Source of the DNA: Microbacterium sp. 10M-3C3
Lineage (GTDB): Bacteria; Actinomycetota; Actinomycetes; Actinomycetales; Microbacteriaceae
Direction: 5' to 3'
Assembly (NCBI RefSeq): GCF_003931875.1
Contig: NZ_CP034245.1
Coordinates: 2,914,001 to 2,978,000 of the forward strand
Length of the DNA: 64,000 nt
Below, piece by piece: positions 28,171-47,534 of the stretch. The number at the start of each line of letters is the position of its first letter. Positions within the stretch are counted from its first letter, which is position 1. The position numbers were made by a program, and so were the translations under genes. The notes under the pieces were generated by a model. That model was not told the origin of the DNA. It was given only the letters and a program-made list of their open reading frames with translations, and ran no database searches.

Positions 28171-28290
28171 CTACGGCGCGATCTGGACGCCGTAGGCGTC
28201 GGCGATGTCGGTGAGGACCTGGTTGAGTGCGAGGTATCCCTGACCGCGCATCCACGCCTCGAAGTCGACGTCGTTACCGGCTTCTCAGGT
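28171..28290 (-). pseudogene. C-terminal remnant of an unidentified gene
   Basis: A minus-strand frame reads DVDFEAWMRGQGYLALNQVL and then TDIADAYGVQIAP before a TAG at 28171-28173. It looks protein-like but is cut off by the start of the neighbouring Cys-motif gene's 3' region, and I do not recognise the family. A perfect 13-bp hairpin (28166-28178 with 28188-28200) overlaps its stop and could be that gene's terminator. Confidence 0.4.
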
Positions 28291-28678
28291 CCCCGGACAC
28301 GTCGACTCCAGCGGCGGTCGCCTTCTCTCGAGCGTGTTCTTCACACAGCGTCCACGTCCACAGTCGGATCGTGTACTGCTTGGCCGGTTTGCCGCATTCC
28401 TCGCAGGTCTCGATGCTCACCCACGACGCCGCGAGGATCGCCTCGTCGAACGCTGGCAGGTGCGCAGAGCCGTCGGCGGATGGGTAGGCGTAGTAGTCGA
28501 GGGACCCGAACTTCGACTTGACCTGGTGCAGCACGTAACCCGGCGCGATCTCCGCCAGCTGCGCATCGAGTCGGGCCAGCAGCGGGAACCAGCCCGGGCC
28601 GACGTCGATCCACGTTGGCCAACCCGGCGCGAAACGGGCGAGGAGCGGCTGAAGTCCCGGCGGGGAGTGGTCAGTCAT
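28274..28678 (-). CDS. Small CEECG-motif protein of unknown function
   Basis: Soluble protein of 134 residues with no signal peptide. Layout: FAPGWPTWIDVGPGWFPLLARL near the N-terminus, VLHQVKSKFGSLDYYAY in the middle, AILAASWVSIETCEECGKPA with a CxxC pair, then a WTWTLCEEHA end, giving three cysteines and a His. A similar VKxKFG...CExCG...LCxxHA arrangement occurs in hypothetical proteins of phages and actinobacteria, function unknown to me. Before an IS256 insertion its ATG overlapped the stop of the gene now at 30184-30592 (ATGA). A frameshifted copy lies at 13031-13427 in direct orientation. Confidence 0.7.
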   Translation of the reverse strand: MTDHSPPGLQPLLARFAPGWPTWIDVGPGWFPLLARLDAQLAEIAPGYVLHQVKSKFGSLDYYAYPSADGSAHLPAFDEAILAASWVSIETCEECGKPAKQYTIRLWTWTLCEEHAREKATAAGVDVSGDLRSR

Positions 28679-28744: not shown

Positions 28745-30183
28745 GGCTGAGTCCCTTAGCGTGGTGTCACTTCCCGCGGGGTTCTCGTCGTCGTAGGCGA
28801 TGAAGGGCCACCGTGGGATGACCAGTTGTTTCCGCCAAGAAGCAAAGAAGAGATCCCACGATGACCCACCACCAGTCTGCCTTGACGACTCTGATCGGCG
28901 AAGTCCTTGCCGACCCCGACCTGGCTCACTCGGACGTGTTCCGTCGGATGCTGCAGGCGGGCCTGCAGGACCTGATCAACGCGGAAGCGACCGTGAAGAT
29001 CGGCGCGGCCCCGCATGAGCGCACCCCTGAGCGCACCACACGCCGCAACGGCACCCGACCCAAGACGCTGGCGACCCCGGCCGGGGAGGTGGACCTGCAG
29101 ATCCCGAAGCTGCGGGAGGGGTCGTTCTTCCCGAGCCTGCTGCACCCGCGTCGCCGGGTCGATAAGGCCCTCTACGCCGTGATCTGCCAGGCATGGATCG
29201 ACGGGGTCTCCACCCGCAAGGTCGACCAGCTGATCCGCGCGCTGGGCAACGACACCGGCATCTCCCGGTCGACGGTCTCTCGGATCTGCTCAGAGATCGA
29301 CGAAACCGTGCACGAGTTCCTGCACCGCCGACTCGATCACACCTGGTTCCCGTACCTGTTCCTCGACGCCACCTACCTCGACGTCCGCCACCGCGGCCGC
29401 GTCGTCTCCCAAGCCCTCGTGGTCGCCACCGGCGTCAGCGGCGACGGGCGCCGCGAGATCCTCGGCATGAGCCTCGGGGATGCGGAGACCACCGACTTCT
29501 GGACCGAGTTCCTCCGCAGCCTGCGCGACCGGGGACTGAAGGTCGCCACCGACGCCGATCCGCTCGGCGTCGCCCTGGTCACCTCCGATGCCCACGCCGG
29601 CCTGAAAGCCGCGATCAAGGCGATCCTGCCCGGATCCGGGTGGCAGAGATGCCGAGTCCATTTCGCCCGCAACGTCACCCAGAAGCTCGGCTCGGCCCGC
29701 TCCAAGCCCGTCAACGCGCTGATCTCGACGATCTTCGCGCAGACCACCTCCGAGGCGGTGCTTGCCCAATACAAAGCCGTCGCGGACAGCCTGCGCAGCT
29801 CCTTCCCGGAGGTCGCCGAGATGCTCGAGGCCGCCGAACCCGACCTCACCGCGTTCGCACCACTACCCCGCGAGCACTGGCAGAAAGTCTGGTCCAACAA
29901 CCCCATCGAACGCCTCAACCGCGAGATCAAACGCCGCGCCGACGTCGTCCAGATCTTCCCCGACCAAGGCTCCGTGACCCGCCTGATCGGCGCCGTCATC
30001 CAAGAGCAGCACGAGGAATGGTCCTACGGCGAACGCCGCTACTTCTCCGACATCTCCATGCGCAAACTCGTCCACACCCTCCACGACCACGCAGAGCCGG
30101 CACGCCCCGAGCTCTACCTCACCGCCTGACCACCACCCACCACAGGGAACAACTGGAGTGACACCACGCAAAGGGACTTGACC
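28745..30183 (+). mobile_element. IS256-family insertion sequence, complete, 1439 bp
   Basis: Terminal inverted repeats of 27 bp (28745-28771 and 30157-30183) match at 23 positions and share the core AGTCCCTT and GCGTGGTGTCACT. The element is flanked by a perfect 8-bp direct repeat GGGATTGT (28737-28744 and 30184-30191), the size expected for IS256. Removing the IS and one repeat rejoins an open frame, so the insertion is recent enough to be reconstructed exactly. It contains one transposase gene. Confidence 0.95.
28861..30129 (+). CDS. IS256-family (Mutator-type) transposase
   Basis: DDE transposase of 422 residues. Catalytic residues are D169 (FLDATYLDVR), D243 (VTSDAHAGL) and E350 (WSNNPIERLNREIKRR); ISRSTVSRICSEID is the upstream DNA-binding region and CRVHFARN the C-terminal signature. 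Full length and uninterrupted, so likely active. It starts 116 bases inside the left terminal repeat and ends 27 bases before the right repeat. Confidence 0.95.
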   Translation: MTHHQSALTTLIGEVLADPDLAHSDVFRRMLQAGLQDLINAEATVKIGAAPHERTPERTTRRNGTRPKTLATPAGEVDLQIPKLREGSFFPSLLHPRRRVDKALYAVICQAWIDGVSTRKVDQLIRALGNDTGISRSTVSRICSEIDETVHEFLHRRLDHTWFPYLFLDATYLDVRHRGRVVSQALVVATGVSGDGRREILGMSLGDAETTDFWTEFLRSLRDRGLKVATDADPLGVALVTSDAHAGLKAAIKAILPGSGWQRCRVHFARNVTQKLGSARSKPVNALISTIFAQTTSEAVLAQYKAVADSLRSSFPEVAEMLEAAEPDLTAFAPLPREHWQKVWSNNPIERLNREIKRRADVVQIFPDQGSVTRLIGAVIQEQHEEWSYGERRYFSDISMRKLVHTLHDHAEPARPELYLTA

Positions 30184-30592
30184 GGGATTGTTCTCGGAAC
30201 CGGCGGCCCACGCGCAGGCTGCGGGGGACATCCTTGTCCCAGCTGATCATGCCCCGCCGCCGCCATTCGATCGTCACATGCCCGCGAAACCCCGTTACCG
30301 CACGGCGACGTTCGAAGAAGCTCAGATCCGTCGGGAACGACGAGGGCAGGCCCTTCGTGTCGGGCAGGAGGTGCGCGAACAGCTCCGAGAACGTCGGGCC
30401 GAGAGAGGTGCGGCGCCGGGTCTGCGCGATGAAGATCGCCGCCGCGAGGGCCCACTCTTCAGCAGTGTCCTCGCCGGTGAACTCCTCGAACAGATAGACC
30501 CATGGCGCCGGCGGCGGGCTCGGAACCCCGCGCCACCAGATCGGATACGGGTCAGGCACCACGGCCACCATCACATTCACGGTCGCACGCAC
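30184..30592 (-). pseudogene. Unknown gene split by the IS256 element (5' part)
   Basis: From a GTG at 30592 the frame encodes about 136 native residues (PYPIWWRGVPSPPPAPWVYL, then FEEFTGEDTAEEWALAAAIF) and then runs into IS sequence to a stop at 30119. Excising the IS and one target repeat continues the frame through 28736-28675 and stops with a TGA overlapping the ATG of the CEECG gene, giving about 156 residues. No family recognised; no membrane segment or signal peptide is evident. It was clearly the first cistron of a coupled pair. Confidence 0.8.
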
Positions 30593-30770: not shown

Positions 30771-32426
30771 CTACGCGAAGCGCACCTGCTCCGCGTGGGC
30801 TGCACGGGGCGGCCTTGATGGGCTGAGCAGCCTTTCTATCCGCTCGACGACGGCTCCGGTGAGACCGACGTCTTTGTCGGTTCTCACGAGTCGCATGCGC
30901 TGACCGGTGCCATCGACGAACCGAGCCTCGGCGTCGTAGGGCGCGCGGCCGTCGGCCCAGACCACGGCTTCTGCGTGCGTGCCAACCGCGTAGGAGATCA
31001 GGCTGCGCATGCGCCACCCGGGCTTGGGCCAGTCCTGCCAGGGGATGTGCTCCCCACCGAGCCTCCCTCCGAGCGGATGCTGGATGAACCACTCGAGCTG
31101 ATCGCGGGGCCAGGAGGTCAGCCAGGCGACGTGGACGCCGGTGCGGTGCACGATGCGGTCGAGCTCGCGGATCAGCCCGGTGTCGATGTCGAGCCACGAG
31201 CGCCAGTCGTCTGCGTCGGGCTCCTGCCCGGAGCGGATGCGAGCGATCGTGCCGTCGACGTTGAGCACGAGGAGTCTTCGTGCTCGCGACACCGTTCCCG
31301 CTCTCACGTCGAGCTCGCTGCCGATGCCAGCATGTTCGAGGATCGCGTCGAGGTCGTCGGGCAGCAGCCGGGCTCGGTTCAGCACCCGGGTGGGTGGAGC
31401 CGCCCAGCCGAGCGGGACGTCCCAGTTCGCGGGGATCCGGACGGCGTCCAGGTGCCGCAACAGGCATGCCCGGTGGGTGCGGGCTGACGCGTAGAGCGCC
31501 TTGTCGAGCCGGCAACGGATCGTCTTGACATTGCGGGACTTGCGGGCACCGTACGCGGCGAGCACCGCTTGCCGGGAGTGCTCGATCACGTTCTCGGCGG
31601 TGCGTCGCAACCCTCGGCCACCGGGAGCGTGCGCGAGGCGGGCGATGACACCCTCGATGATCTCGACCTGGGGCCTCGGGTCATAACGCGGGCTAAGAAG
31701 GTACCGGAGGAACTCGGGCTGGATCAGCGTGCCCGTCAAAGCGACGATCTCCGGGTACGCGCACAGCAGGAAGTCCGCGTCGGAGGAGAACGGATCCACG
31801 CCGAGGGTCTGCCCGCGGCTCATCGCCGGGCTGATGCGGGTGTCTTCGGCGGCGATGCGCAGCAGGCGTGCGGCGAGCTGCAGCTCGCCGGTGTGGAGGC
31901 CGATGCCGCGCAGCCAGAGCTTCCCGGACAGCCAGCGTTCGGCCCTGCCATACTCCGGGAAGCGTCTGATGTCGATGTCGCGGCCGTCGAGGTGCCAGCG
32001 GCCATGGTGCAGGCAAACCGCACCGCCGCGGGAGATGACCGTGGTCGACTGGCCGTGGGAGCAGCGCAGGCAGGCGGTGCGCGGTGGTTGCGGGGATCCG
32101 CAGCCTCGTGTGCAGTAGTCGATCTTCCAGTCGTTGTGGCTGCAGCGCACGGGCATCTCGTGGCGTCGGGCCTGGGCGGCGAAGTGCCCGCGGCGCAGCC
32201 CGGCGAGGTGTTCGATCACCCGGTGACCGAGCTCGAGATCGGGCCGGTTCGAGGACAGCCCAGCGAGATCGCGCACGTGCAGGCGCAGGTCAGCGAACGG
32301 CATCTCGTTCGCGGATGCGAGGCGATGAGCGAACCCAGTGACCGTCTCTCCCGGGATCGGCGCGAGCGGCACAGGGAGCGGTTCCGCAGTCGGCGCGCCA
32401 AACTCTCGCTGCCGGGACGTGGTCAC
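30771..32426 (-). CDS. tniQ: TniQ/TnsD-like target selector with C-terminal degenerate HAD domain
   Basis: Predicted target-site selector of 551 residues. The N-terminal TniQ signature APIPGETVTGFAHRLASANE is followed by zinc-finger cysteines at 105, 109, 119, 122 and 138, then a helical region to about 370. Residues 383-537 look like a HAD-fold domain: LLVLNVDGT, AWLTSW (435-439), Lys 468 and VVWADGRAP. The nucleophile position of the DxD motif is Asn 389 while Asp 391 remains, and the final acidic pair is reduced to A491-D492, so phosphatase activity is doubtful. It overlaps tnsC by 4 bases. I know of no standard Tn7 selector with such a tail; a target-recognition role is inferred. Confidence 0.85.
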   Translation of the reverse strand: MTTSRQREFGAPTAEPLPVPLAPIPGETVTGFAHRLASANEMPFADLRLHVRDLAGLSSNRPDLELGHRVIEHLAGLRRGHFAAQARRHEMPVRCSHNDWKIDYCTRGCGSPQPPRTACLRCSHGQSTTVISRGGAVCLHHGRWHLDGRDIDIRRFPEYGRAERWLSGKLWLRGIGLHTGELQLAARLLRIAAEDTRISPAMSRGQTLGVDPFSSDADFLLCAYPEIVALTGTLIQPEFLRYLLSPRYDPRPQVEIIEGVIARLAHAPGGRGLRRTAENVIEHSRQAVLAAYGARKSRNVKTIRCRLDKALYASARTHRACLLRHLDAVRIPANWDVPLGWAAPPTRVLNRARLLPDDLDAILEHAGIGSELDVRAGTVSRARRLLVLNVDGTIARIRSGQEPDADDWRSWLDIDTGLIRELDRIVHRTGVHVAWLTSWPRDQLEWFIQHPLGGRLGGEHIPWQDWPKPGWRMRSLISYAVGTHAEAVVWADGRAPYDAEARFVDGTGQRMRLVRTDKDVGLTGAVVERIERLLSPSRPPRAAHAEQVRFA

Positions 32427-33439
32427 TCCGCCTCTCCCGTGGAGGTTCTCCGCTCTGCGGCGAGCTCCCTGGCCAGCGCAGTGAAGTCGAGTCGTTCCTC
32501 GCCGGTCTCCATCGCCCGGACGGCTTCGATCTGGATGCGGCCGGCGACCTCCCCGACGCGGCCGTTGCTCGCCTCATGGAGGACGTCTGCGAAGCGGAGG
32601 ATGTCGCCGGGTTCCTGGTCGACCAGCCGCGCGTTCGCCTCCAGATCCTCCAGCAGTGCCGACCAGTAGTCCCGGCCCTCCTGACGGGTCATCGTGCTGG
32701 GCACGAGCGGCATGGTCTTGAACCGGGTCACGACCTGGTCAGCCCAGTCACCGCCGAGGAGCCCGGAGTCGGCGACGTTCGCCCCGACATACAGGAACGT
32801 GGCACCGCACTTCTCGGACAGCTGCTTGAGATAGTTCGTCGCGTCGGACGCGCCCTGCCGGTCCTGGCGGAGATTGTGGATCTCGTCGATGATGATCAGC
32901 TCCGTGCGGCACTTCGCGACCGTATCGGCGATCGCCCGCAGCAGTTCGCCGCTGGTGGTGCGGGGCCGCACGGGGCGCCCGATGAACCCGGCGAACTCCA
33001 TCAGCAGGCTCTTCGGTGTGCAGTCCGCCGGGACGGAGACGTACATCACCGGGATCGCGTCGCGGCCGATGCCTCCGAACCGGCGGCGGCGCAGCTCAAA
33101 CTCCTTCGCCAGCCAGGTCGCCGCGGTCGACTTGCCGGCGTTGGGCACCCCGTCCACGATGACCCCCAGCGCGCCGCCGCGTTTGCGGCTGTTCACGATC
33201 ATCCGCGCCCGCATCTCGTCGCGGATGGCGCGCAGCTCCGGGGTGAAGGAGATGCGGCCGTTGCAGATGAAGTCCATGCGCTGCTGCCCATAGGCGACTC
33301 GATCTCGCTCAGGCAGGGCGTCGAGCTCCTTGCGGGTCAGCAGCGGCGGCTCGGAGAGATGCTCCTCGACGAACGCCGCCCATCCGGATCTCGTCTGCCA
33401 GTTCGGTCTCGGAACCGAATCGATGTCCAGCTCGATCAT
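32423..33439 (-). CDS. tnsC: TnsC-like AAA+ transposition regulator
   Basis: ATPase linking target selector and transposase. From the ATG at 33439 (overlapping the tnsB stop as ATGA) it has 338 residues: Walker A VDGVPNAGKSTAA (G97 to S104), Walker B ELIIIDEIHNL (D185, E186) and a sensor-like TFLYVGANVAD. The N-terminal 90 residues (WAAFVEEHLSEPPLLTRKEL) resemble TnsC/TniB leaders that contact TnsB. The open frame up to 33835 is a shadow of tnsB. Confidence 0.9.
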   Translation of the reverse strand: MIELDIDSVPRPNWQTRSGWAAFVEEHLSEPPLLTRKELDALPERDRVAYGQQRMDFICNGRISFTPELRAIRDEMRARMIVNSRKRGGALGVIVDGVPNAGKSTAATWLAKEFELRRRRFGGIGRDAIPVMYVSVPADCTPKSLLMEFAGFIGRPVRPRTTSGELLRAIADTVAKCRTELIIIDEIHNLRQDRQGASDATNYLKQLSEKCGATFLYVGANVADSGLLGGDWADQVVTRFKTMPLVPSTMTRQEGRDYWSALLEDLEANARLVDQEPGDILRFADVLHEASNGRVGEVAGRIQIEAVRAMETGEERLDFTALARELAAERRTSTGEAE

Positions 33440-35514
33440 TCCAGCCTCCCTCTCAACTCCGGGTTCTCCACGGAGAACCCGCCCGCCTCGCGCCATGCCG
33501 CGTCGTCCGGATCTGGGCTCTCCAGGAATCCGTGCCCACCCGTGCGGCGGAATCGCGCCTGCCCGGTGGCCGTGTCGTCCACGGTCTCGGGGATGTCCAC
33601 CTCGTCGGCGGTGATCTGATGGGAGAGCACCATGTCGTCGTCGCGTGCCGCCTCGGCCTGAGCAACCTGCCGGTCGGGCCTCGGGTCCCCGTAGCGTCCT
33701 TTCCGCAGCCCCTGCAGGAGCGCCTTCTTCGCCCGTTCCCGACCGTCTTCGGTCCGGGGCTGACTGTCGGCGATGCGTTGGGCAAGCAGCCGGTCGCGTT
33801 CGAACGGGGTCCGCGCGGCGGACCCGTGCGTCCACTGCATCGGGATGAACCGATCGCCCAGATCGAGCCAGATCGTGTGGAAGTCATGCGGATCGAACCG
33901 GATCGTCCACTTCTTCTTCCGCGATGTACTGCGCATCACCGCGCGTGCTTCCTTCGACGAGTAGACGCGTCGTCCCCGGTTGATGCCGTAACTCTGCGGT
34001 ATCCGGTTCTCCGCGGGCAGCAAGCTCACGTACTCCTCCGGCCCGAACGGCACCGGCAGCTCCGGCGCTTGTTCCCGCAGCATGTTCGCCATCTCCAGCG
34101 GCGTCCACATCCGCGACGGGCGTATCGGATCCCGAAGCCCCGGGTGCGGCCGGTTCACCCACACCACAGCGATCCAGTCCTCCAACAACTCCTGCACCTG
34201 AGTGAGCGTCGGCGCCAGATGCTCGGCCGTATCACTGCCCCGGTGCTCGACGCTGCGACCGACGTGGCTGCGCAGGTACTGCGCGAACTGCTCGTTGAAC
34301 GAGTCGAACTTCTGCTCCACGTGCGGCTTGCCCGTCGGCGTGTACGGCGGGGCCAGGATGAGCGAGATCCCCAGCCGCTCACAGGCGGCACGGAAGTCCT
34401 TCGACGTGTAGATCTTGCCGTTGTCGGTAGTGATCACCTCCGGGAACACGTACGGGACCGCCGTCCGGTACGCGTCCAGCTCCTCCTGGCTGATGCCGAA
34501 CGGATCCGCCCAAGCCTCCGACACCAGCTCCCGGGTGCGCCGATTGCTTGCCGGCCGCAGCCCATATGGGGTCAGCGCCCGCGCCAGTAGCGCGACGAGG
34601 TCCACCGACTTCGTCCCGTACGGGCGCACGAGCGCCGCCAACGGCAACCGTGCGTCGACCGCGTACAGGATGGTCAGCTCCGGGCGGGCCACTCCCCCGC
34701 GTGCAGTGATCTTCCCGTTCGGCAGCAGCACCTCGGCGTCAAGCCGCGTCGTGTCGATCTGCACGTGCTCCCCCAGCCGCACCGCCCCGTGAGAGGAGAA
34801 CAACCGGTCGGGGACTTTCGCCGTCGTGGCACGCAGCTTTGCGGTGCTCTTCAGGTGTGCGGCCAAGGGGAACGTGTCGATGATCCGTCGCAGCGTCGAC
34901 TCGCTCGGCATCGGAAACGGCGGGCTATCGCCGTAGCGGTCTTCGACCGCCCACCGGATATCGGTCATCAGCCGGATGATCGTGGCTGTTGACTCGCGCA
35001 CCGCGATGCCGATCTGCTCCTCCACGATCTCCAGCAGGCAGGGGTCCCATCGCGATGTCTTCACCGCCGTCGCCCGTCCGTCGATCGCCCCGGGCAGCCC
35101 GCGCTCCTTGTACGCGGCGGCTCGGCGGCGCAGCGTCCGATCACTTACCGCCGCGTCCGGAAGCTGTGCGCGCACACCGGCGAGGATCTCCTCGATCCCG
35201 CGCCGGGTGTCCTCCGGGGTCCTGCCGACGACGTTCAGCAGGTCGAAGTAGCGACGTACCGCGTCCTCCCACACCAGAGCCGCCGCCTGCGATGACTCTC
35301 CCAATCCGTGCAGCACCGCATCGTTACGGACCGCAATCCGCTTCGACGCTCCTCGGTTCCAATCGACGCTCGGATCGTGGATCAGCTCACTGATCAGCGC
35401 CACCCTGGTGAACCCGCCGTGGACGGAGCGGAGCCTGGCCTCGCGAGCGTCGAAAGCGATGAGCTCGAACTCGGTGTCCTCCCACATCAGCCGGTCACCG
35501 AGCTTGAGCCTCAT
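33436..35514 (-). CDS. tnsB: TnsB-like DDE transposase
   Basis: Catalytic transposase of 692 residues that binds the element ends and joins 3' ends to the target. N-terminal helix-turn-helix domains precede a retroviral-integrase core with D254 (EHVQIDTTRLDAEVL), D364 (VITTDNGKIY) and E400 (GKPHVEQKFDSFNEQ), then a Mu-type beta domain and a charged tail. The first 115 residues include the MWEDTEFELIAFD start region typical of TnsB/TniA. ATG 35514 overlaps the tnsA stop (TAATG) and has GGAGG 8 bases upstream; ATG 35520 is a less well spaced alternative. Confidence 0.93.
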   Translation of the reverse strand: MRLKLGDRLMWEDTEFELIAFDAREARLRSVHGGFTRVALISELIHDPSVDWNRGASKRIAVRNDAVLHGLGESSQAAALVWEDAVRRYFDLLNVVGRTPEDTRRGIEEILAGVRAQLPDAAVSDRTLRRRAAAYKERGLPGAIDGRATAVKTSRWDPCLLEIVEEQIGIAVRESTATIIRLMTDIRWAVEDRYGDSPPFPMPSESTLRRIIDTFPLAAHLKSTAKLRATTAKVPDRLFSSHGAVRLGEHVQIDTTRLDAEVLLPNGKITARGGVARPELTILYAVDARLPLAALVRPYGTKSVDLVALLARALTPYGLRPASNRRTRELVSEAWADPFGISQEELDAYRTAVPYVFPEVITTDNGKIYTSKDFRAACERLGISLILAPPYTPTGKPHVEQKFDSFNEQFAQYLRSHVGRSVEHRGSDTAEHLAPTLTQVQELLEDWIAVVWVNRPHPGLRDPIRPSRMWTPLEMANMLREQAPELPVPFGPEEYVSLLPAENRIPQSYGINRGRRVYSSKEARAVMRSTSRKKKWTIRFDPHDFHTIWLDLGDRFIPMQWTHGSAARTPFERDRLLAQRIADSQPRTEDGRERAKKALLQGLRKGRYGDPRPDRQVAQAEAARDDDMVLSHQITADEVDIPETVDDTATGQARFRRTGGHGFLESPDPDDAAWREAGGFSVENPELRGRLE

Positions 35515-36269
35515 TACCATCCCCTCCCCGCGGACGCCGCGAGCGTGTTCCGTTCGATCGGCGCATCCAGATCCACCTCGAGCGACCCGTGCCACAGCGC
35601 TGCGTACAGCACACCGCGCGCGGGGATGTCCGTTTCCCCGATCAGCTCGATCCACTCCCCCAGCGGCAGCAGCTCGCCTGCCCGTGCGGCAAGCAGCCCC
35701 CGCACATCCGCAGGGCAGGACCACCGCGGATACCGGTACCCGGCGAGGAAGCGCAAGTTCGTCGCCTCCTGCTCGGACAGGTCGCACACGATCCCGTAGT
35801 CGACCTCCGCCGCCGCGCACAACGCCGCGGTGCGCGCGAACGCCCGCTCGTGACGCTCACGGATCCGCTCTCGCGGCTTGACGTCCACCAGCAGCGACCG
35901 TTCGTCCGTCCGGTCGAGCAGCACATCCGGGAAGCGACCTCCCTTGGTGTCCGCCCACGTGACCTTCATCGGCTGCGTCGCGATGCCCACCACCGACGGA
36001 TCCCGGTCGAACGACATCAGCGCGCGCATCTCGTACAGCGACTCGAACCAGTGATGCCGTCCCGTCGTCGCCGCCCAGTACCTTCCCGCATAGCTCTGCT
36101 TATCCGGGTAGGACTCCGACTCGCGCACCTCCGACAGCGGCGCCGTCCGCAACTCGCCCATCGACAGCCCGTCGAACTGGCGGTTCGCCCCGTCCCACTT
36201 CACCAAGAGCGTCGCCTGCTCCACCGCGCTGGGATCCAGCACCGTGGGGATCGCTCTCGTGAGCCGCAT
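35514..36269 (-). CDS. tnsA: TnsA-like endonuclease
   Basis: Restriction-like nuclease that cuts the 5' ends so the element moves by cut and paste. The 251-residue protein from ATG 36269 (GAGGTGG upstream; the frame reaches 36338) has the TnsA catalytic set: E76 in HHWFESLYE, D115 in GRFPDVLLD and K131 in LLVDVKPRERI. The C-terminal part, with a region resembling the TnsC-contacting domain, is present. The first gene of the four-gene operon, transcribed away from the phased repeat array. Presence of an intact catalytic TnsA argues against a replicative Tn5053-type element. Confidence 0.88.
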   Translation of the reverse strand: MRLTRAIPTVLDPSAVEQATLLVKWDGANRQFDGLSMGELRTAPLSEVRESESYPDKQSYAGRYWAATTGRHHWFESLYEMRALMSFDRDPSVVGIATQPMKVTWADTKGGRFPDVLLDRTDERSLLVDVKPRERIRERHERAFARTAALCAAAEVDYGIVCDLSEQEATNLRFLAGYRYPRWSCPADVRGLLAARAGELLPLGEWIELIGETDIPARGVLYAALWHGSLEVDLDAPIERNTLAASAGRGW

Positions 36270-36355: not shown

Positions 36356-36438
36356 CGCCGTGGCCAACTAACCTGCGACCATGGCCACCTCCGTGACGCC
36401 GTGGCCATCAATCCTGGAACTTTGGCCACCTCTCGTGA
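36356..36438. repeat. Phased repeat array, candidate Tn7-like right-end TnsB sites
   Basis: Two adjacent units of 41 and 42 bp (36356-36396 and 36397-36438) share CGCCGTGGCCA, CCTG, TGGCCACCTC and CGTGA. Counted as half-units, four TGGCCA/TGGCCAC cores start at 36361, 36382, 36402 and 36423, spaced 21, 20 and 21 bases. Overlapping sites phased at about two helical turns next to tnsA are how Tn7 right ends are built, so these are likely TnsB binding sites. Confidence 0.65.
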
Positions 36439-36589
36439 AAACGAACATTCATGAGCGGAACATCACGAAAACATAACAAGAAGGTCTTCCCTTCCGTTAC
36501 CTCACCGTTATAGAGTCATCGCACGGTAGTCGTTTTGCTGTGGCGGCTACCGGCATGTGATTGCAGGACAACTCTTGGTGCAGGGACAA

Positions 36590-36619
36590 GGGCCGGCCGG
36601 AAGCCTCTCCGACCGGCCC
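36590..36619 (+). terminator. Hairpin with T-run before the DUF222 gene
   Basis: GGGCCGGCCGGA pairs with TCCGACCGGCCC (one mismatch, 6-base loop) and is followed by TTTT. It would terminate plus-strand transcription entering from the transposon side, or act as an attenuator 48 bases before the DUF222 start. The 36439-36589 stretch to its left holds AT-richer DNA with no gene. Confidence 0.6.
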
Positions 36620-36666
36620 TTTTCTCTGCTCGGCGTCATGTCGGAGGTTGGTGCGACAGTAAGCAC

Positions 36667-39617: not shown

Positions 39618-40427
39618 TCAGCTCCCGATGACGAGTACGCTGGCGGCGGCTTCGACGACGTCGTCGGTGATTGTCTCGAGTTCGTTGATCTTGAGGATGC
39701 GGTTGATCTGGGGGAACAAGCGCTCGAGGAGGCGGAAGTTTCCGCGGGTGATGCGTTCGATGGCGGCGACGGCTTGGGCGTCGGTGAAGTCGTCTGGGTT
39801 GAGGGTGCGTCCGAGGCGTGTCCAGTGTCGGTCGAGGACGAAGAGGAGTTCGTCTCGGCCAAGGGCGCGGTAGCGGTGGGAGAACCCGAGGCGGCTGTAG
39901 AGCTGGGGGTAGTGGCGGAAGCGTTGGTCGATGCCGGGCATGCCGATCAAGATGATCGCGAGATGGGTACGGTCGTGTTCGTCGCGAAGCAGCTCGAGCG
40001 CGGTGGGCGTGAGGCGCTCGGCTTCGTCGACGATGAGCAGTTCGACCCACCGTGTGGTGTCGGCGGTGTTCACTCCGGTGACTTTCCCGATGGTGCGGAG
40101 GTGCTCGTCGATACAGATGCCGACTTTGACACGCCATCTGCTGATGTCTCCCATGAGGTCTCTGGGTCGCGGGAGGACCTCGGGTGTGTAGAACACGGTG
40201 CGGGAGCGATGCGCGAGCGCGTAGTGTTTCGCGTCGTCCTCGCTCCTCGGGCCCCACGCGGTGATGAAAGGCTGGAGGGTGTCCCAGTTGGCGTAGCGGC
40301 GGGCGGAGTTGGTCTTTCCGACTCCAGCGTCACCGTGGCAGATGCCGATGGTGCGTTCCTTCTTCACCGCGTTCGCGAACTCGGTGAAGCGGCGGTGTTC
40401 CTTCGTGACGATGAAGCTCTGGGTCAT
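39618..40427 (-). CDS. AAA ATPase, transposition helper (TniB/TnsC-like)
   Basis: ATPase of 269 residues expected to partner the adjacent DDE transposase. Walker A GDAGVGKTNSARR lies near residue 33, Walker B ELLIVDEAERL near residue 130, then a sensor IILIGMPGIDQR. The MuB/TniB pattern FYTPEVLPRPRDLM is present. ATG 40427 shares bases with the transposase stop (TGATG). No TniQ gene follows, unlike Tn5053. Confidence 0.88.
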   Translation of the reverse strand: MTQSFIVTKEHRRFTEFANAVKKERTIGICHGDAGVGKTNSARRYANWDTLQPFITAWGPRSEDDAKHYALAHRSRTVFYTPEVLPRPRDLMGDISRWRVKVGICIDEHLRTIGKVTGVNTADTTRWVELLIVDEAERLTPTALELLRDEHDRTHLAIILIGMPGIDQRFRHYPQLYSRLGFSHRYRALGRDELLFVLDRHWTRLGRTLNPDDFTDAQAVAAIERITRGNFRLLERLFPQINRILKINELETITDDVVEAAASVLVIGS

Positions 40428-41809
40428 CACTCCTCCTCGTAGGTGCGGAGTCGTTTCTTGGGCGGGGTCGAGTCCGCGAGGTGGGGTTCTTCGCGGTGGG
40501 CGATGGTGGGGATGCGGTCGTTGATGGTGCGGCGGAGTTCGTGGCGGCGGGCGCGGCGGGCGGCTTCGATGTCTCGGAGGCTGAGGCGGGTGTTGGGGTG
40601 GGCTTCGTCGACGGCGACGCAGATGAAGGTGCCGTGGTCGTAGACGCGGATCTCGGAGAGGTCGCGGGGGTCGTAGCGGATGGTGACTGCGTGTCCGACG
40701 AACGGTGCGAGGGTGGTCGCGAGATAGCGCTGGCCTTGGAAGTGGATGCCGTCTCGTTGCACGGTCCGATGCGTGGGCACGGTGAGCAGCAGGCCGTCGA
40801 GCTCGTTGAGGGTGTCGGGCATGCGGGGTATCCAGCCGTCCGCGACCCATGCGTCGCGTGGGGAGATGCCGAGCGCCTGATGGGTGCGCTGGTTGTAGGT
40901 CGCGATGAAGGCGCCGATCGCTCGGTCCAGGCCCGGGAGGTCGAGCACGGGCTGCGGGTTGCGGTTCCCGGGGCCGAGGTGGCCGGGGAGGGTTGGGAGG
41001 ACTTCGGTGTTGATGGTGCCGAAGAATCGCTCGATTTTGCCGCGCCCCTGGGGCCTGCCGACGGTCGAGAAGATGAGCCGTAGGTGCAGCTCGATGGCGG
41101 TGCGTTCGAGGTGGTGGCTGGTGAAGTCGGAGCCGTGGTCGACGTGCAGCACATCGGGGATTCCGCACATCGCCCACGCGGGGTCGGTCTTTCGCCAGAT
41201 CGCCTGCCGCAACGCGAGCGCGGTGTTCAGTGACGAGGGCGCTCCGGTGAAGACCATGTATCCGCAGATCGCGCGGGAGTGATCATCCATGACGGTTGTC
41301 AGCCAGGGCCGGTCGGGCTTCCCGTTCGCGCCGATGATGAGGATGTCGAGTTCGGTATGGTCGGCCTGCCAGATCTGGTTCGGCCGTTGTGCGCGACGGC
41401 GGAACACCAGCTCGTGACGATCGCGGTAGGACGCGGGACCCTCCAACGCGAGGGTGACGAGTGCGGGGTCGAGGGCCTGCACGATTTCTCGGACGGTCGC
41501 GTAGCTCGGCGCCGGCCTACTCTCGCGTAGGCACTCTTCGACGATGAGTCGATGCAGCGTCGCGATTGACGGACGAGGCCGGGTCAGGGCGAGCCGCTCG
41601 ATGGCGGCGACGGTTGCGGGGTCAGTGCGTCGGCTGCCCTTGTCTCTTCGTGCGGTGTCGTCGAGTCCTGCGAGCCCGTGTTTCTCGTAGAGCTGATGCC
41701 AGCGTTGGAGCGTCCGCGTGCCGATGCCGCTCTCGCGGGCGAGGGCCGCGAGGGGGATCTGATCTTCGACGTGAAGTCGGAGGATCCGCCACCGCTCGAG
41801 GCCGTCCAT
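40427..41809 (-). CDS. DDE transposase with Mu-type C-terminal domain (TniA/Tn552-like)
   Basis: Transposase of 460 residues. The N-terminal helix-turn-helix (IPLAALARESGIGTRTLQRW) is followed by an integrase core with D150 (IWQADHTELDI), D224 (LHVDHGSDFT) and E260 (GRGKIERFFG), and a Mu C-terminal beta domain near residues 320-400 (AVTIRYDPRDLSEIRVYD). It lies 6 bases after the resolvase gene and couples to the ATPase gene. Shorter than TnsB by about 230 residues, as in Tn552-type elements. Confidence 0.92.
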   Translation of the reverse strand: MDGLERWRILRLHVEDQIPLAALARESGIGTRTLQRWHQLYEKHGLAGLDDTARRDKGSRRTDPATVAAIERLALTRPRPSIATLHRLIVEECLRESRPAPSYATVREIVQALDPALVTLALEGPASYRDRHELVFRRRAQRPNQIWQADHTELDILIIGANGKPDRPWLTTVMDDHSRAICGYMVFTGAPSSLNTALALRQAIWRKTDPAWAMCGIPDVLHVDHGSDFTSHHLERTAIELHLRLIFSTVGRPQGRGKIERFFGTINTEVLPTLPGHLGPGNRNPQPVLDLPGLDRAIGAFIATYNQRTHQALGISPRDAWVADGWIPRMPDTLNELDGLLLTVPTHRTVQRDGIHFQGQRYLATTLAPFVGHAVTIRYDPRDLSEIRVYDHGTFICVAVDEAHPNTRLSLRDIEAARRARRHELRRTINDRIPTIAHREEPHLADSTPPKKRLRTYEEE

Positions 41810-41815
41810 GAGCCG

Positions 41816-42412
41816 CTACATCGCTGCGCTCTCGCGGGCCGCATGGACCTGCTGATGGCGGTAGAGCGTCGCGCGACTCCACCCGACGAGACGAGCGGCG
41901 TCCTCGGCGGTGCGGCCGCGCGCTCGCGCATCCGCGGCAATCGCGAGCTTGTCCGCGATCACGACCGGGTCCGACAGAGGCCGGCCAAACCGGGTCCCGT
42001 TCGCTCGGGCGGCTGCGATGCCGGCGTTGACCCGTTCGACGATGAGCTCCCGCTCGTACTCCGCGAGCGTGGCCAACATGTTCAACATCAGCCGGCCCGT
42101 CGACGTCGACGGATCGATGCCATCCGAGATCGACCGCACCTGCACGCCGCGCTCGCGCAGCAGATTCACGGTGTTCAGCACGTCGATCAGGGAGCGGCCG
42201 AGGCGGTCGACTCGCCAGACGACGACGGTGTCGCCGTCTTCGGCGTACTCGAGGAGCTTCTTCATCCCGGTCCGCTCGATCGCGGTCTTGCTCCCCGAGG
42301 TGACATCCGCGAAGACGTCGCGCTTTTGCACCCCGGCAGCAACGAGCGCGTCGAGCTGCAGCTGCGCGTCCTGACTCGACGTACTCACGCGCGTGTATCC
42401 GAGAAGCCTCAC
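41816..42412 (-). CDS. tnpR: Serine resolvase/invertase
   Basis: Small serine recombinase of 198 residues resolving cointegrates of this transposon. The catalytic Ser lies in LLGYTRVSTSSQD (residue 10), followed by VVVWRVDRLGRSL, LMLNMLATLAEYERELI and a C-terminal helix-turn-helix (RTAEDAARLVGWSRATLYRH). I prefer the GTG at 42412 because resolvases start just before this motif; the frame reaches a GTG at 42436. Inverted GAGACG repeats upstream may be its res site. Confidence 0.92.
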   Translation of the reverse strand: MRLLGYTRVSTSSQDAQLQLDALVAAGVQKRDVFADVTSGSKTAIERTGMKKLLEYAEDGDTVVVWRVDRLGRSLIDVLNTVNLLRERGVQVRSISDGIDPSTSTGRLMLNMLATLAEYERELIVERVNAGIAAARANGTRFGRPLSDPVVIADKLAIAADARARGRTAEDAARLVGWSRATLYRHQQVHAARESAAM

Positions 42413-42451
42413 GAGCCCATTCTGACTCGGAAACACCCTTTATGACCCCTG

Positions 42452-42610: not shown

Positions 42611-42982
42611 TCAATCGGTCTGAACGACCGGTAGCCCCGTCGCGGCTGCGGCGTCTGCGAGCGAGCCGAGGTTGCGTACTTGGGTGAAGCCTGCGTCCTC
42701 CATGAGGTCGACGGCGGCTGCGGCGCGTTGACCTGAACGGCAGTAGACGACGTAGTCGGCGTGGGGGTCCAGGTCAGGGATTGCCGTTTGCAGCTCGCCG
42801 GCGGTGACGTCGAGCAGGAGTGCCCCATCGAGATGCCCTTCGGCGTGTTCGGCGGGTGTGCGGACGTCGATGACGATCGCATCCGAGCTAACCGCAGGTT
42901 GGGCGGTGGTCGGCGCGGTGCAACTCGTGAGCGCGAAGGCGGCGACGAGTGCGGTGACTGTAACGAGGGCGAAGCGACGCAT
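42611..42982 (-). CDS. Rhodanese-domain lipoprotein
   Basis: Exported sulfurtransferase of 123 residues. Signal peptide with lipobox ALTSC near residue 20 predicts anchoring outside the membrane. The single rhodanese domain has IVIDVRTPAEHAEGHLDGAL and active-site loop VVYCRSGQRAA. ATG 42982 follows AAAGGA; the frame's extension to 43216 is unsupported. Last gene of a persulfide/sulfite cluster, so it probably handles sulfane sulfur outside the cell. Confidence 0.88.
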   Translation of the reverse strand: MRRFALVTVTALVAAFALTSCTAPTTAQPAVSSDAIVIDVRTPAEHAEGHLDGALLLDVTAGELQTAIPDLDPHADYVVYCRSGQRAAAAVDLMEDAGFTQVRNLGSLADAAAATGLPVVQTD

Positions 42983-43005
42983 GGGGTCCTTTCGGGGGTT
43001 TGGGG

Positions 43006-43548
43006 TTAGAGGTTGCAGGAGCGGTCGGCGCAGTGATGTGTGGGGTGTCGGCTGAGACGGCGGTGGAGGTGGCAGCCCGCGCACCAGCCGAAGATCGCTT
43101 CCAGGGCTAGGAGGATGAAGCAGACACCGCACAGGGCGAGTACCCCCTGGAGGGGGATAGCGCCGGAGCCCAGCGCGACGCATGAGACTGTGGCGATGCC
43201 GACGGCTAGCCACCACGCGAAGGCCTTCTGCGGGGCGCCGACCCAGCGCGGGAAGTGGGAGCGGCTCGCGAGTCGTCCCAACGCCAGGGTGATCGACAAC
43301 CGATCACTGACGAGGAGACGGGTCAGCATGTCGAGCAGGAAGAACATTCCGAACATCTGCAGCGGGCGAGTCGTCCCGAACGCGAGTGCGGCGGTGGCGG
43401 CGAGAAGTCCGAGCGTCAGCAGGAGACCGGCCGCGATCCGGACCGCACGTTCATCGATGACAGGCCCCTGGTAGCCCTCGATGAGGGCACCAACGCGCGG
43501 GAGGACGACAGCGGGGGTGACGGACATGAGCGATTCCCGGAGGGTCAT
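43006..43548 (-). CDS. DUF4395 family membrane protein
   Basis: Integral membrane protein of 180 residues with about four hydrophobic helices (AAGLLLTLGLLAATAALAFG, FGMFFLLDMLTRLL, AFAWWLAVGIATVSCVALG, LALCGVCFILLALEAIF) and a Cys/His-rich tail (GWCAGCHLHRRL, HHCADRSC). DUF4395 proteins accompany rhodanese and TauE genes in many actinobacteria; the role is unknown. It overlaps tauE by 4 bases (ATGA). Confidence 0.8.
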   Translation of the reverse strand: MTLRESLMSVTPAVVLPRVGALIEGYQGPVIDERAVRIAAGLLLTLGLLAATAALAFGTTRPLQMFGMFFLLDMLTRLLVSDRLSITLALGRLASRSHFPRWVGAPQKAFAWWLAVGIATVSCVALGSGAIPLQGVLALCGVCFILLALEAIFGWCAGCHLHRRLSRHPTHHCADRSCNL

Positions 43549-44315
43549 AGAAGAGGTGCGAGGCGCAGGATCGTCGCTGTGAGCATGATGATGCCCACGC
43601 CCAGGACGAAGAAGCCGAAGCTTTTGCGGAGCGTGGGGGCGGACAACTTTCTGGCGAGCAGCATCCCGGCGACGGAGCCGACAACGGCGAAGGCGGTGAA
43701 AGGAAGAACGGTTTCCCATGGGATCGCGGTGGCGAACACCTGTGCGGCGAGTCCTGCGGTGGAGTTCAGTGCGATGACGAGGAGTGATGTGCTGGTGGCC
43801 GCGGCGATGGGCAGACCGAAGATCAGCAGCGCGGGGACGATGAGGAAACCACCTCCCGCCCCGAGCAGCCCCGTGAGGAACCCCACAGACACCCCCATGA
43901 TCACGACGCGCAGGACATGAGAGCTGCGCGCGCGAGGTCGCTCGGGTGGGGCGGGTGTGCGACGGCCGCGGATCATCGCGAGTGCCGTGGCGATCATGAT
44001 GCCGCTGAAGAGAATGGCGAGGAGGGAGTCGGGCACGAACCGCCCCAGAGATGCACCGCCGAGCCCGCCGAGCATCCCTGTCGCCCCGAACGCGACACCG
44101 ACCCCCCATTTCACGGTCCCCGTTCGCGCGCGTATCAGGACGGCGATGGCGCTGGTCACTGCGACCACGAAGAGCGAAGACGCGATCGCCTCTCGCGTTC
44201 CCATGCCCAATATCAGGGTGAGGACGGGGACGGCGAGGATTGAGCCGCCTCCGCCGAGGAGCCCGAGCGCGACGCCGACCACGGTCGCGAGGATCATCGC
44301 GGTGATGATGGGCAA
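43545..44315 (-). CDS. tauE: TauE/SafE-family sulfite or thiosulfate exporter
   Basis: Membrane protein of 256 residues with about eight helices. The TauE repeat is seen twice (ALGLLGGGGSILAVPVLTLIL and FLTGLLGAGGGFLIVPALLI). In cst operons TauE exports sulfite made by the persulfide dioxygenase. It lies 23 bases after the CstB-like gene and overlaps the DUF4395 gene. Confidence 0.9.
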   Translation of the reverse strand: MPIITAMILATVVGVALGLLGGGGSILAVPVLTLILGMGTREAIASSLFVVAVTSAIAVLIRARTGTVKWGVGVAFGATGMLGGLGGASLGRFVPDSLLAILFSGIMIATALAMIRGRRTPAPPERPRARSSHVLRVVIMGVSVGFLTGLLGAGGGFLIVPALLIFGLPIAAATSTSLLVIALNSTAGLAAQVFATAIPWETVLPFTAFAVVGSVAGMLLARKLSAPTLRKSFGFFVLGVGIIMLTATILRLAPLL

Positions 44316-44338
44316 GGTCAGTCGGGCTCCTCGAGGGG

Positions 44339-45754
44339 TCAGGCGGCGTTCGCGGCGGGCTGCGCCGTTGCGGCGAGCCAGGCGCGGTAGCTGCCGTCGA
44401 TCTCGATGACGTCGTGACCGGCTCGACGCAGGGCGCTGGCGACGACGCTGTTGCGGACGCCGCTCTGGCAGTAAGTGAGGATGACGCCCGAGCTGGGGAG
44501 CTCATCGGTGTGCCAGAGAGCGCGACCGCCGGAGAGTTGGGCGGCACCGGGGATGTGTCCCGCGTTGTATTCGGTGCGGTTGCGCACATCGAGCAGGAGG
44601 GCGTGCTCCACCTGGTCGATGTCCGTGGGGGCGATGGTCTTCGGCTGAACGAGCCGCAGTCCGTCGAGGGTGTCGGTGAAGCCGTGGACAGCGTCGATCC
44701 CCACCCGCAGCAGGTGGTCGCGGAACCGCCCGGCCGCGTCAGTCGAGTCGGCCAGAATGACGAGGGGGCGTGTTTCCGTCTCAGGGTCGTAGACCCAGGC
44801 GGCGTAGCTGGCGGCTTTCGCTTCGCCGGGGACGTTGAGCGCGCCGGGCACGGTGCCCTGGTGTACCTGCGCGTGGTGGCGGGTGTCGATGAGGATGACG
44901 CTGTCTTCCTCCAGCGCAGCGGACAGGTCGGAGGCGTCGATTTGCGGCAGCGGTGCGAGCTTGCCCAGCAGAGCGGGCCCGGTGCGGTTCTGCCGCTTCA
45001 TCCGGGCGAAGTAGGCGTGCGCATCAGGTTGATCATCGAGGAGGGAGTTGATGAAGCCCTGCTCGTCGCCGGCGGCCAGGTACGGTGCCCACCAGGCAAA
45101 GCGTCGCTCGTATCCGACCGTGGAGGTGGGGACAGCGCCGAGGGCCTTGCCGCAGGCCGAGCCGGACCCGTGTGCGGGGAGCACCTGGACGTAGTCCGGG
45201 AGGGTGAGGAAACGGTCGCGAAGGCTGGCGAACAGATCGCGCGCGCCCTGGAAGCGGGTGTCGATACCGCCGGCGGCTTCATCCAGCAGGTCGGGGCGGC
45301 CGATGTCGCCGACGAAGACGAAGTCGCCGCTGAGGAAGTAGCCCGGGTCGGAGGTGGCGGCTCCATCGGTGACGAGGAAGGAAAGGTGCTCGGGGGTGTG
45401 GCCGGGGGTGTGCACTGCTTCGAGGGCGATGTTGCCGAGGGTGATGCGCTGACCGTGCACCATCCGGGTGGCGTCATCGAATCCGGAACCGTACTGCCAG
45501 TCGGGCCCGCCCTCGGCGGAGACGTACATCGTCGCTCCCGTGCGGGCAGCGAGTTCGCGGGTGCCGGAGAGGTAGTCGGCGTGGATGTGAGTCTCGGTGA
45601 CGGCAGTGATGGTCATGCCATGCTTCGCGGCGAGGTCGAGATAGACCTGCACGTCGCGGCGGGGATCGACCACAATCGCTTCACCGTTCCGCTGGCAACC
45701 GATCAGGTAGCTGGCGTGCGCGAGGTCGTCGTCATACAAGCGTTCGAGGAGCAC
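44339..45754 (-). CDS. cstB: CstB-like persulfide dioxygenase-rhodanese fusion
   Basis: Multidomain enzyme of 471 residues oxidising persulfide and transferring sulfur. The N-terminal metallo-beta-lactamase fold has ETHIHADYLSGTREL, HTPGHTPEHLSF and SGDFVFVGDIGRPDL (ETHE1-type iron site). Two rhodanese domains follow: the first (about 275-370) lacks a catalytic Cys (LVILADSTDAA), the second has TYCQSGVRNS. This MBL-pseudorhodanese-rhodanese order is that of CstB. GTG 45754 gives the family start (LLERLYDDDLAHASYLIGC); the upstream frame is unsupported. Confidence 0.9.
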   Translation of the reverse strand: MLLERLYDDDLAHASYLIGCQRNGEAIVVDPRRDVQVYLDLAAKHGMTITAVTETHIHADYLSGTRELAARTGATMYVSAEGGPDWQYGSGFDDATRMVHGQRITLGNIALEAVHTPGHTPEHLSFLVTDGAATSDPGYFLSGDFVFVGDIGRPDLLDEAAGGIDTRFQGARDLFASLRDRFLTLPDYVQVLPAHGSGSACGKALGAVPTSTVGYERRFAWWAPYLAAGDEQGFINSLLDDQPDAHAYFARMKRQNRTGPALLGKLAPLPQIDASDLSAALEEDSVILIDTRHHAQVHQGTVPGALNVPGEAKAASYAAWVYDPETETRPLVILADSTDAAGRFRDHLLRVGIDAVHGFTDTLDGLRLVQPKTIAPTDIDQVEHALLLDVRNRTEYNAGHIPGAAQLSGGRALWHTDELPSSGVILTYCQSGVRNSVVASALRRAGHDVIEIDGSYRAWLAATAQPAANAA

Positions 45755-45774
45755 GGGGATCTGCTTTCGCGGGG

Positions 45775-45894
45775 TCAGTGCGCGCAGGTGCAGCGCTGGT
45801 CTTCGGGAACGTCGGCGAGGGCGTCGTCGATGTGTTGGCCGCAGCCGGCCCACGTGGGCTTGCCGCAGGAGGGGCAGGTGATTTGAGCGCACAC
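45775..45894 (-). CDS. 39-residue Cys-rich protein with CPSCGKPTWAGCGQH motif
   Basis: Tiny ORF from a GTG at 45894, 2 bases after the thioredoxin stop. It holds six cysteines: one at position 2, CPSC, then GC and CTC near the end, consistent with a small zinc ribbon. Its GKPTWAGCGQH core is shared with the 61-residue protein at 46272 (GKTTWAGCGQH). Position between thioredoxin and the CstB-like gene implies a role in persulfide handling, perhaps as a sulfur acceptor; this is inference. Confidence 0.75.
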   Translation of the reverse strand: MCAQITCPSCGKPTWAGCGQHIDDALADVPEDQRCTCAH

Positions 45895-45896
45895 GG

Positions 45897-46265
45897 TCAG
45901 GCAGCCGTCTCGGCAGCCGCGATCTGGCGGCGGACATCATCCATGTCCAGCTCGCGGGCTTTGGTGATCAGTTGCTCGAGCTGCGGGGCAGGCAGAGCAC
46001 CGGGCTGCTTGTACACCAGCACGCCATCGCGGATCACCATCAGCGTCGGGATCGAGGTGATGCGGTGAGCCGAGGACAACTCAGCTTCCGCTTCGGTGTC
46101 CACTTTCGCGAACACGATGTCGGGGTGCTTCTCCGACGCCGCCTCGAATACCGGAGCGAACGAGCGGCACGGGCCGCACCAGGCCGCCCAGAAGTCGATG
46201 AGGACGATCCCGTCTGCCTGGACGGCCGGGCCGAAGGTCTCGTTCGTGAGCTCAGTGGTGGCCAT
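45897..46265 (-). CDS. Thioredoxin
   Basis: Cytoplasmic disulfide reductase of 122 residues with active site FWAAWCGPCRSF and the cis-Pro region ITSIPTLMV. The C-terminal extension RELDMDDVRRQIAAAE is typical of actinobacterial thioredoxin-like proteins. It sits 6 bases after the 61-residue Cys-rich gene, so it likely reduces persulfidated proteins in this operon. Confidence 0.93.
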   Translation of the reverse strand: MATTELTNETFGPAVQADGIVLIDFWAAWCGPCRSFAPVFEAASEKHPDIVFAKVDTEAEAELSSAHRITSIPTLMVIRDGVLVYKQPGALPAPQLEQLITKARELDMDDVRRQIAAAETAA

Positions 46266-46271
46266 CGTCGG

Positions 46272-46457
46272 TCACCGCCCGAACAGGCGCGAGAAGAACC
46301 CGCCCTGCTTCGACTGTGCAGCCTGCACCTCACCGCGCGTGTGGTTGCCATTGCACCACTGCGACGCGGGCACCGACGCGCGTACCGAAGACACGTGCTG
46401 GCCGCAGCCCGCCCACGTCGTCTTCCCACAGGTCCGGCACTTCGTAGCTCGACACAT
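46272..46457 (-). CDS. 61-residue Cys-rich protein with CRTCGKTTWAGCGQH motif
   Basis: From ATG 46457 with GGAGAG upstream. Five cysteines (MCRATKCRTCGKTTWAGCGQ, later WCNGNH) suggest a small zinc-binding fold; the C-terminus ends in a basic GGFFSRLFGR. First gene of the minus-strand cst operon, facing two CstR operators. Paralogous to the 39-residue protein at 45775. Similar small proteins are common next to thioredoxin genes in actinobacteria, function unknown. Confidence 0.8.
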   Translation of the reverse strand: MCRATKCRTCGKTTWAGCGQHVSSVRASVPASQWCNGNHTRGEVQAAQSKQGGFFSRLFGR

Positions 46458-46476
46458 GTTCTCTCCCTTTCCGGCG

Positions 46477-46529: not shown

Positions 46530-46561
46530 AGTTGTTGTCAACTCGACGGAAGGAACCGCTC

Positions 46562-47528: not shown

Positions 47529-47534
47529 GTGCCG

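Follow-up and report, generated by a model that had tools for sequence, protein, structure and literature searches.

The 64,000-nucleotide stretch of DNA from Microbacterium sp. 10M-3C3 analyzed here (contig NZ_CP034245.1, positions 2,914,001 to 2,978,000; hereafter referred to as the window) carries a Tn7-like element in which the TniQ protein is extended at its C-terminus by a domain of the HAD fold that has very probably lost its catalytic activity. Related elements that possess this HAD protein as a separate gene, or that have none nearby, occupy the same attachment site (att) in the same orientation. We suggest, with slightly more confidence than doubt, that a companion HAD protein was captured into TniQ, lost catalysis while its fold was kept, and became a tethered accessory, the choice of att being made by the TniQ core.

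The HAD-fold domain of the TniQ protein

The fusion gene (30771-32426, minus strand) encodes a protein of 551 amino acids, and an intact second copy, P0001, is 98% identical to it. Residues 1-365 (31332-32426, minus strand) form the TniQ core, which is helical in the structural model, is matched alone by 36 of 37 homologues, and contains invariant Cys and His residues that we take to be zinc ligands. A linker (residues 366-382; 31281-31331, minus strand) modeled with low confidence connects the core to the HAD-fold domain (residues 383-537; 30816-31280, minus strand). When the whole protein is modeled (mean pLDDT 67.3), confidence is high over most of the HAD part and low in the region ahead of it, with values below 50 at residues 320-357 and 365-382. 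The isolated domain is modeled with a pLDDT of 83.9 and matches MDP-1 and other HAD phosphatases; the 50 matches listed by VIA appear to be HAD proteins throughout, and it should be noted that a family absent from the listed VIA and Foldseek matches is not thereby excluded. The fused protein scores 16.2 bits for HAD_SAK_2 (PF18143) over residues 386-524, below the cut-off of 27.5 bits, and three stand-alone proteins that are 47-52% identical to the fused HAD part reach 31.9-38.4 bits, above this cut-off; identities to 22 stand-alone sequences range from 36 to 51%. Because of the structural matches of the model and the homology to proteins above the Pfam cut-off, the C-terminal domain is assigned a predicted HAD fold of HAD_SAK_2-like type. 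A chance match to HAD proteins was ruled out, as the stand-alone homologues and the structural model concur.

Twenty-three of 38 HAD database matches were taken into the HAD alignments, and the final alignment comprises 27 sequences: 25 stand-alone proteins (23 distinct), the window's protein and P0001. Two trial alignments (A3, A6), in which low identities of the HAD sequences to the window revealed misplacement, were set aside. In the customary nomenclature of HAD motifs, the nucleophilic Asp of motif I is replaced by Asn389 (codon at 31260-31262) and the second Asp of motif IV by Gly493 (30948-30950) in the window's protein and P0001 only; both residues are kept in all 25 stand-alone relatives. 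The second Asp of motif I (residue 391) and Lys468 are still present. As judged from these replacements, HAD catalysis was very probably lost in the fusion. Among the 33 columns that are invariant in the 23 distinct stand-alone proteins, the window's HAD part retains 29, the catalytic Asp pair accounting for two of the four lost, and it agrees with the majority at 41 of 107 less conserved columns. In leave-one-out controls, the stand-alone proteins kept 32-33 of 33-37 invariant columns, and the most distant of them, P0074, kept 33 of 37 invariant and 33 of 102 other columns. Since 29 of the 33 columns remain, the alignment argues against a long period of unconstrained decay and for a fold retained while the active site was lost; recent decay is possible. 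An earlier note, made from the letters of the window alone, had read residues 383-537 as HAD-derived and had doubted catalysis on account of Asn389. Both readings are borne out, the former by the domain model, the HAD structural matches and the stand-alone homologues, the latter by Asn389 together with Gly493, and the structure prediction for the C-terminal region that the note had called for yields a HAD fold instead of a TnsD-type helical helix-turn-helix (HTH) extension.

The Tn7-like operon and the right end of the element

TnsA, TnsB, TnsC and TniQ are encoded in one operon on the minus strand (30771-36269), as recognized by open reading frames (ORFs) and Pfam matches, and the element belongs to the Tn7-like group by this gene content and the catalytic residues of its proteins; the latter all lie at the positions that the earlier note had given. 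The tnsA gene (35514-36269, minus strand; 251 amino acids from the ATG implied in that note, the ORF being open to 36338) matches PF08722 with an E-value of 5.1e-5 and has E76, D115 and K131 in place. The DDE transposase gene tnsB (33436-35514, minus strand; 692 amino acids, ORF open to 35820) matches the Pfam families rve (E 6.5e-6) and Mu-transpos_C (0.0031) and a transposase PHROG (E 3.4e-41), and residues D254, D364 and E400 are present. The AAA+ regulator gene tnsC (32423-33439, minus strand; likely start at 33439, ORF open to 33835) matches AAA_22 (9.3e-17) and TniB (1e-15) and possesses the Walker A motif GVPNAGKST. Two 36-bp direct repeats that are 81% identical (36356-36432, minus strand) represent putative TnsB sites, and such an array was seen at the right end only. 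The proposed right terminus at 36447 (TGTTCG on the minus strand) is the fourth of four TGT matches in the window. It was picked because its spacing to the conserved flank equals that in the related locus L027, and the offset given for the window therefore leans on this comparison.

A conserved attachment site next to a small-RNA-like gene

The att of the window lies at 36495-36621 on the plus strand. It has a -10-like box at 36509, recognized by eye, and a terminator-like hairpin, and its promoter side faces the element. This segment of about 127 bp is conserved in 34 of 58 relatives and, with the window included, in 34 of 35 members of the same genus; nine of the 34 att-bearing genomes list two or more full-length copies. 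An alignment of 31 sequences has a mean column identity of 87% and displays the -10-like box (by eye) and two hairpins, one of them terminator-like. Compensated changes occur in the other hairpin, e.g., from A-U to G-C in seven of the 31 sequences at one pair, and 13 of the 33 predicted pairs exhibit two-sided change, a count that has no shuffled control behind it. Neither att nor its flank has an Rfam match above the cut-offs, all matches being below them. We call the segment a putative covarying small-RNA-like gene. A second att copy was noticed at L058:9014-9144, and in L039, L040, L041 and L054 two att copies are separated by about 0.85-1.0 kb, with a gene between them that looks, by eye, like one for a histidine phosphatase.

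This group of Tn7-like elements uses a fixed att site in a fixed orientation. Fused, HAD-carrying and HAD-less elements alike have tnsA within about 400 bases of att, always on the promoter side of att and oriented the same way. The att-adjacent elements that carry the HAD gene are those of G005, G033, G002, G071, G072, G097, G170, G238, G283, G175 and G281, and the HAD-less ones are G018 (the L036 record), G004, L028, L030, L032, L034, L037 and L027, the last being cut by a contig edge. HAD-less here refers to the examined stretch, and the genome of L028 contains a truncated HAD about 25 kb away. Altogether, att adjoins tnsA in 21 of 32 mapped stretches, to which a partial att in L027 can be added. 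As to the remaining stretches, att lies just outside in G367 and G159, some do not include the tnsA end, and L029, L031, L033 and L035 have elements that are not located beside att, none of them with a HAD in the examined stretch. The offset, taken as the distance between the conserved border and an element-like TGT, is 44-48 bp in nine of 12 loci and 57 bp in L037; L019 and L028 gave ambiguous values. The nearest HAD-less relatives, L027 and L037, possess TniQ proteins that are 56-57% identical to that of the window. In a profile search, the genomes of L027, L037, L029, L030, L036 and L035 (the L032 record), all but that of L029 with an element at att, yielded no HAD of this family; the search recovered the truncated HAD in the genome of L028 and a HAD on another contig in that of L031. 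Because HAD-less relatives, including those from genomes without any HAD match, use the same att, the choice of this site does not need the HAD domain.

Tn7-like elements are stacked in succession in L030, L032, L035 and L029 (in L029 as seen by eye from end-like repeats), and module exchange between such elements could therefore occur. Away from att, the element of L031, which has no HAD in its stretch, is surrounded by ORFs that by eye resemble FtsK and ParA, and it might represent a case of plasmid targeting; a HAD-less TniQ relative is also found on a Microbacterium plasmid of 148.6 kb.

Stand-alone HAD genes and the tail module of sister elements

Across the 366 genus genomes searched, tniQ was found in at least 52 (five candidates scored per genome) and a stand-alone HAD match (E<=1e-3) in 22. 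Eighteen of these matches are strong, with E-values of about 1e-24 or better, and four are weak (G119, G278, G114, G083). The genome of the window belongs to the strong group, leaving 17 other genomes, and in 13 of these 17 the HAD gene shares a contig with att and lies within 31 kb of it. The idea that the HAD gene is a host gene residing at att was ruled out: it occurs in 22 of 366 genomes of the genus, as compared with 34 of 35 same-genus relatives for att itself, and five genomes whose elements sit at att yielded no HAD. The 25 stand-alone HADs in the alignment keep the Asp residues of motifs I and IV intact. In nine of the 17 genomes (G002, G033, G071, G072, G097, G170, G175, G238, G283), the HAD gene is found less than 2 kb from tniQ and is convergent with it, the order in this tail being tniQ-orf167-orf153-HAD, with an additional orf112 in G033. 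The similarity between G002 and G071 ends about 130 bp past the HAD start, and variable cargo begins there. In G005 and G367 the HAD gene, truncated in the latter, shares a contig with tniQ at a distance of about 25 kb; in G281 and G159 it lies about 9 and 12 kb, respectively, from att, and the tns genes are broken or were not found. Contig breaks obscure the relation between HAD and tniQ in G249, G302 and G172. In G271 a partially matching HAD adjoins orf153 and orf167, with att on a different contig, and G004 contains orf167 and orf153 without a HAD.

The window possesses homologues of both companion genes. orf157, which adjoins tniQ (30119-30592, minus strand), is 70% identical to orf167 of G033, and orf134 (28274-28678, minus strand), whose product has a Cys-rich C-terminal part, is 56% identical to orf153 of G033. 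Therefore, the window harbors the same tail module, with the HAD residing in tniQ. The two homologues are now separated by an insertion of the IS256 (Mutator) family (proposed limits 28745-30182, plus strand; Transposase_mut, 1.7e-121) that has inverted repeats at 28750-28771 and 30157-30178, is bounded by 9-bp target duplications (first positions 28736 and 30183) and altered the end of orf157. Since orf157 and its G033 homologue (70% identical) are far more alike than the corresponding TniQ cores (34-38%), we infer that tail modules may have been exchanged between elements. Neither orf157 nor the other companion ORFs have a Pfam match above the cut-off, neither these ORFs nor the stand-alone HAD matched anything in PADLOC at E<=0.1, and the PHROGs of the companions were likewise uninformative. 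A TniQ scan of viral contigs gave no match.

Rarity and phylogeny of the fusion

Searching for further TniQ-HAD fusions, as the earlier note had advised, brought up one additional case. Among the matches listed, namely 37 whole-protein TniQ homologues drawn from 7990 scored candidates, a HAD domain is shared by P0001 only; it differs from the window's protein at 13 positions, nine of which fall into residues 1-365, and the reading frame is intact in both. The other 36 homologues are 352-410 amino acids long and match only the part represented by residues 1-365. When the frames containing HAD matches were compared across 366 genomes of the genus and 299 of the family, that of the window spanned 600 codons and all others 78-316, so that no other frame has the length required for a fusion. 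In a tree of 43 TniQ sequences, eight TniQs without the HAD part form the sister group of the two fused proteins, with support values of 99/99 for the ten and 95/90 for the eight; the tree program flags long branches. A suspected HAD remnant in TniQs of 410 amino acids (P0007, P0009, P0013) was dropped as a candidate, as the similar tail in L037 overlaps an ORF on the opposite strand.

Possible roles of the HAD domain

In the scenario that we favor, the tail module including its HAD gene would have joined this tniQ lineage through exchange between elements stacked at one att, and the HAD would then have been fused to TniQ and have lost its active site. The TniQ core and TnsC, together with TnsA and TnsB, would choose att at the flank of the small-RNA-like gene. 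The HAD domain would serve as a flexibly tethered accessory that binds a ligand, a nucleic-acid end or a protein partner without hydrolysis; it might thereby modulate the assembly or regulation of the TniQ-TnsC complex and would play no role in chromosomal target choice. Several observations weigh against this scenario. The fusion is known from a single lineage of two sequences on a branch of 1.62 changes per column, which possibly reflects decay, and the Lys of motif III varies even among stand-alone HADs. The stand-alone HAD gene is convergent with tniQ and not part of its operon, and the link between the two may therefore be positional; furthermore, the nine close cases amount to about six distinct DNA variants, because several are near-identical (G071, G097 and G170 at >=99.89%, G002 and G072 at 99.98%). 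Finally, a target-duplication search and a repeat scan did not find the left end of the window's element, which makes its mobility putative. The left ends of relatives were not located via motif arrays either, and when the left flank was sought through the histidine phosphatase gene, the best match (47%) was found some 63 kb to the left of where the window starts and not at the element.

A fusion brought about by chance rearrangement, in which the enzyme was lost under relaxed selection and the HAD part is a passenger with no role in transposition, is rather unlikely in our view, although it deserves serious consideration. The restriction to one lineage, the change of both catalytic Asp residues and the long branch would fit such a history, as would the evident ability of HAD-less relatives to reach att; moreover, the 29 of 33 invariant columns kept compare with the 33 of 37 kept by P0074, and much of the conservation may predate the fusion. 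Set against this are the frame that is intact in two sequences 98% identical to each other, the very same 29 of 33 retained columns together with a confident HAD model, and the recurrent association of this HAD family with these elements. With less probability still, the HAD, separate or fused, could belong to a cargo conflict module (orf167-orf153-HAD) concerned with defense, anti-defense or element exclusion, which the fusion merely couples to TniQ. This proposal gains from the position of the conserved tail at the border of variable cargo, from the Pfam title of HAD_SAK_2, which refers to RNA repair proteins, and from the stacking of elements at one site, where exclusion would pay; it loses from the negative PADLOC and Pfam searches and from G004, in which orf167 and orf153 occur without a HAD.

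We regard it as highly improbable that the HAD domain is a chromosomal target-recognition module. Such a role could be argued from the possibility, raised in the main text of Faure et al. (2023; PMC10293859), that C-terminal extensions of TnsD recognize att; however, the domain has a HAD fold instead of HTH repeats, and HAD-less homologues from genomes without a HAD match share the att, the orientation and nearly the same offset. The earlier note had proposed this function, with partner binding as its alternative, and had named in advance homologues that lack the HAD part yet use the same target site as the finding that would speak against it; such homologues exist (L027, L037, L030, L032, L036, all in the same orientation), and the proposal of a target selector is not supported for the chromosomal site, whereas partner binding may still apply. 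What stands of the note's idea of recruitment is the fusion itself and the recurrence of the same HAD family as a separate gene in sister elements; what lacks support is the HAD as target recognizer. In a more far-reaching reading, the tethered pseudo-phosphatase, which derives from a HAD family with a name that refers to RNA repair, would sense nucleic-acid ends, gaps or a partner involved in replication or repair and thereby open a second, att-independent route of targeting, e.g., to replicating plasmids. TnsE is Tn7's counterpart for the targeting of replicating plasmids and provides the model for such a route. This route is a distinctly long shot, as is the corollary that the stand-alone HAD would supply the att-independent route in trans in sister elements; mildly against its plasmid-targeting version speaks the finding that 72,556 plasmids contained no match to a HAD of this family.

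Comparison with known systems

The window's element resembles Tn7 and Tn7-like elements with TnsD/TniQ selectors in its tnsABC and TniQ proteins, in its near-fixed distance from one conserved site, and in the C-terminal extension of TniQ. It differs from them in that this extension is a HAD pseudoenzyme and not a set of HTH repeats, and in that relatives without the extension share the site; on both counts, helical HTH domains and an att determined by the extension, it departs from a TnsD-type selector. The survey of Tn7-like elements by Faure et al. describes, in its main text, C-terminal TnsD extensions, one case of a TniQ-TnsF fusion, and a route by which a protein is captured, becomes inactive and is then fused. 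TnsF is portrayed there as an inactivated tyrosine recombinase that acts as a selector, is required for Tn6022 transposition and targets comM. The likeness to the window's protein is that of an element-encoded, enzyme-derived protein that lost catalysis and for which a fusion to TniQ exists, i.e., the same logic of domestication. The description of TnsF nevertheless sets the two apart: the window's domain model matches HAD proteins, TnsF being derived from a tyrosine recombinase, and TnsF targets comM, whereas the att shared here argues against a part of the HAD in site choice. With the HAD_SAK_2 family (PF18143), the fused copy has the fold and most motifs in common, and its stand-alone relatives pass the Pfam cut-off; the fused copy itself stays below it and lacks the nucleophilic Asp and the second Asp of motif IV. 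The main text of PMC10293859 contains 'had' only as a verb and none of the words 'haloacid', 'Microbacterium' and 'Actinobacteria', and our literature search, whose coverage extended to few subscription journals, brought up no description of TniQ joined to a HAD domain. Benler et al. (2021; PMC8649781) describe a clade dominated by actinobacterial transposons that had no experimentally characterized member.

If the HAD domain indeed acts on TniQ and TnsC, the window would provide a further natural case, with a fold unrelated to that of TnsF, of a dead enzyme fused to TniQ. TniQ fusions would then not always be site selectors, which advises caution against reading every C-terminal extension as a DNA-recognition device. 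The natural set of elements with a fused, a separate or an absent HAD, all at one att, offers a ready controlled comparison, and an att beside a structured RNA-like gene that no Rfam family matches above its cut-off would represent an additional safe site for actinobacterial Tn7-like elements.

Other features of the window and its relatives

In G175 (L094:4474-6375), two tniQ matches fall into a single frame of 771 residues, a probable TniQ-TniQ fusion. The window itself contains a second transposition module on the minus strand (39618-42436) that consists of an ORF for an AAA ATPase, a Mu-like rve transposase (40427-41809) and a serine resolvase (41816-42436). Next to it, the region 42611-56177 contains genes for rhodanese and for proteins of the metallo-beta-lactamase fold, together with those for a cadmium transporter and for two P-type ATPases, of which one has a heavy-metal domain; this gene content suggests a metal-resistance island beside the second transposition module.

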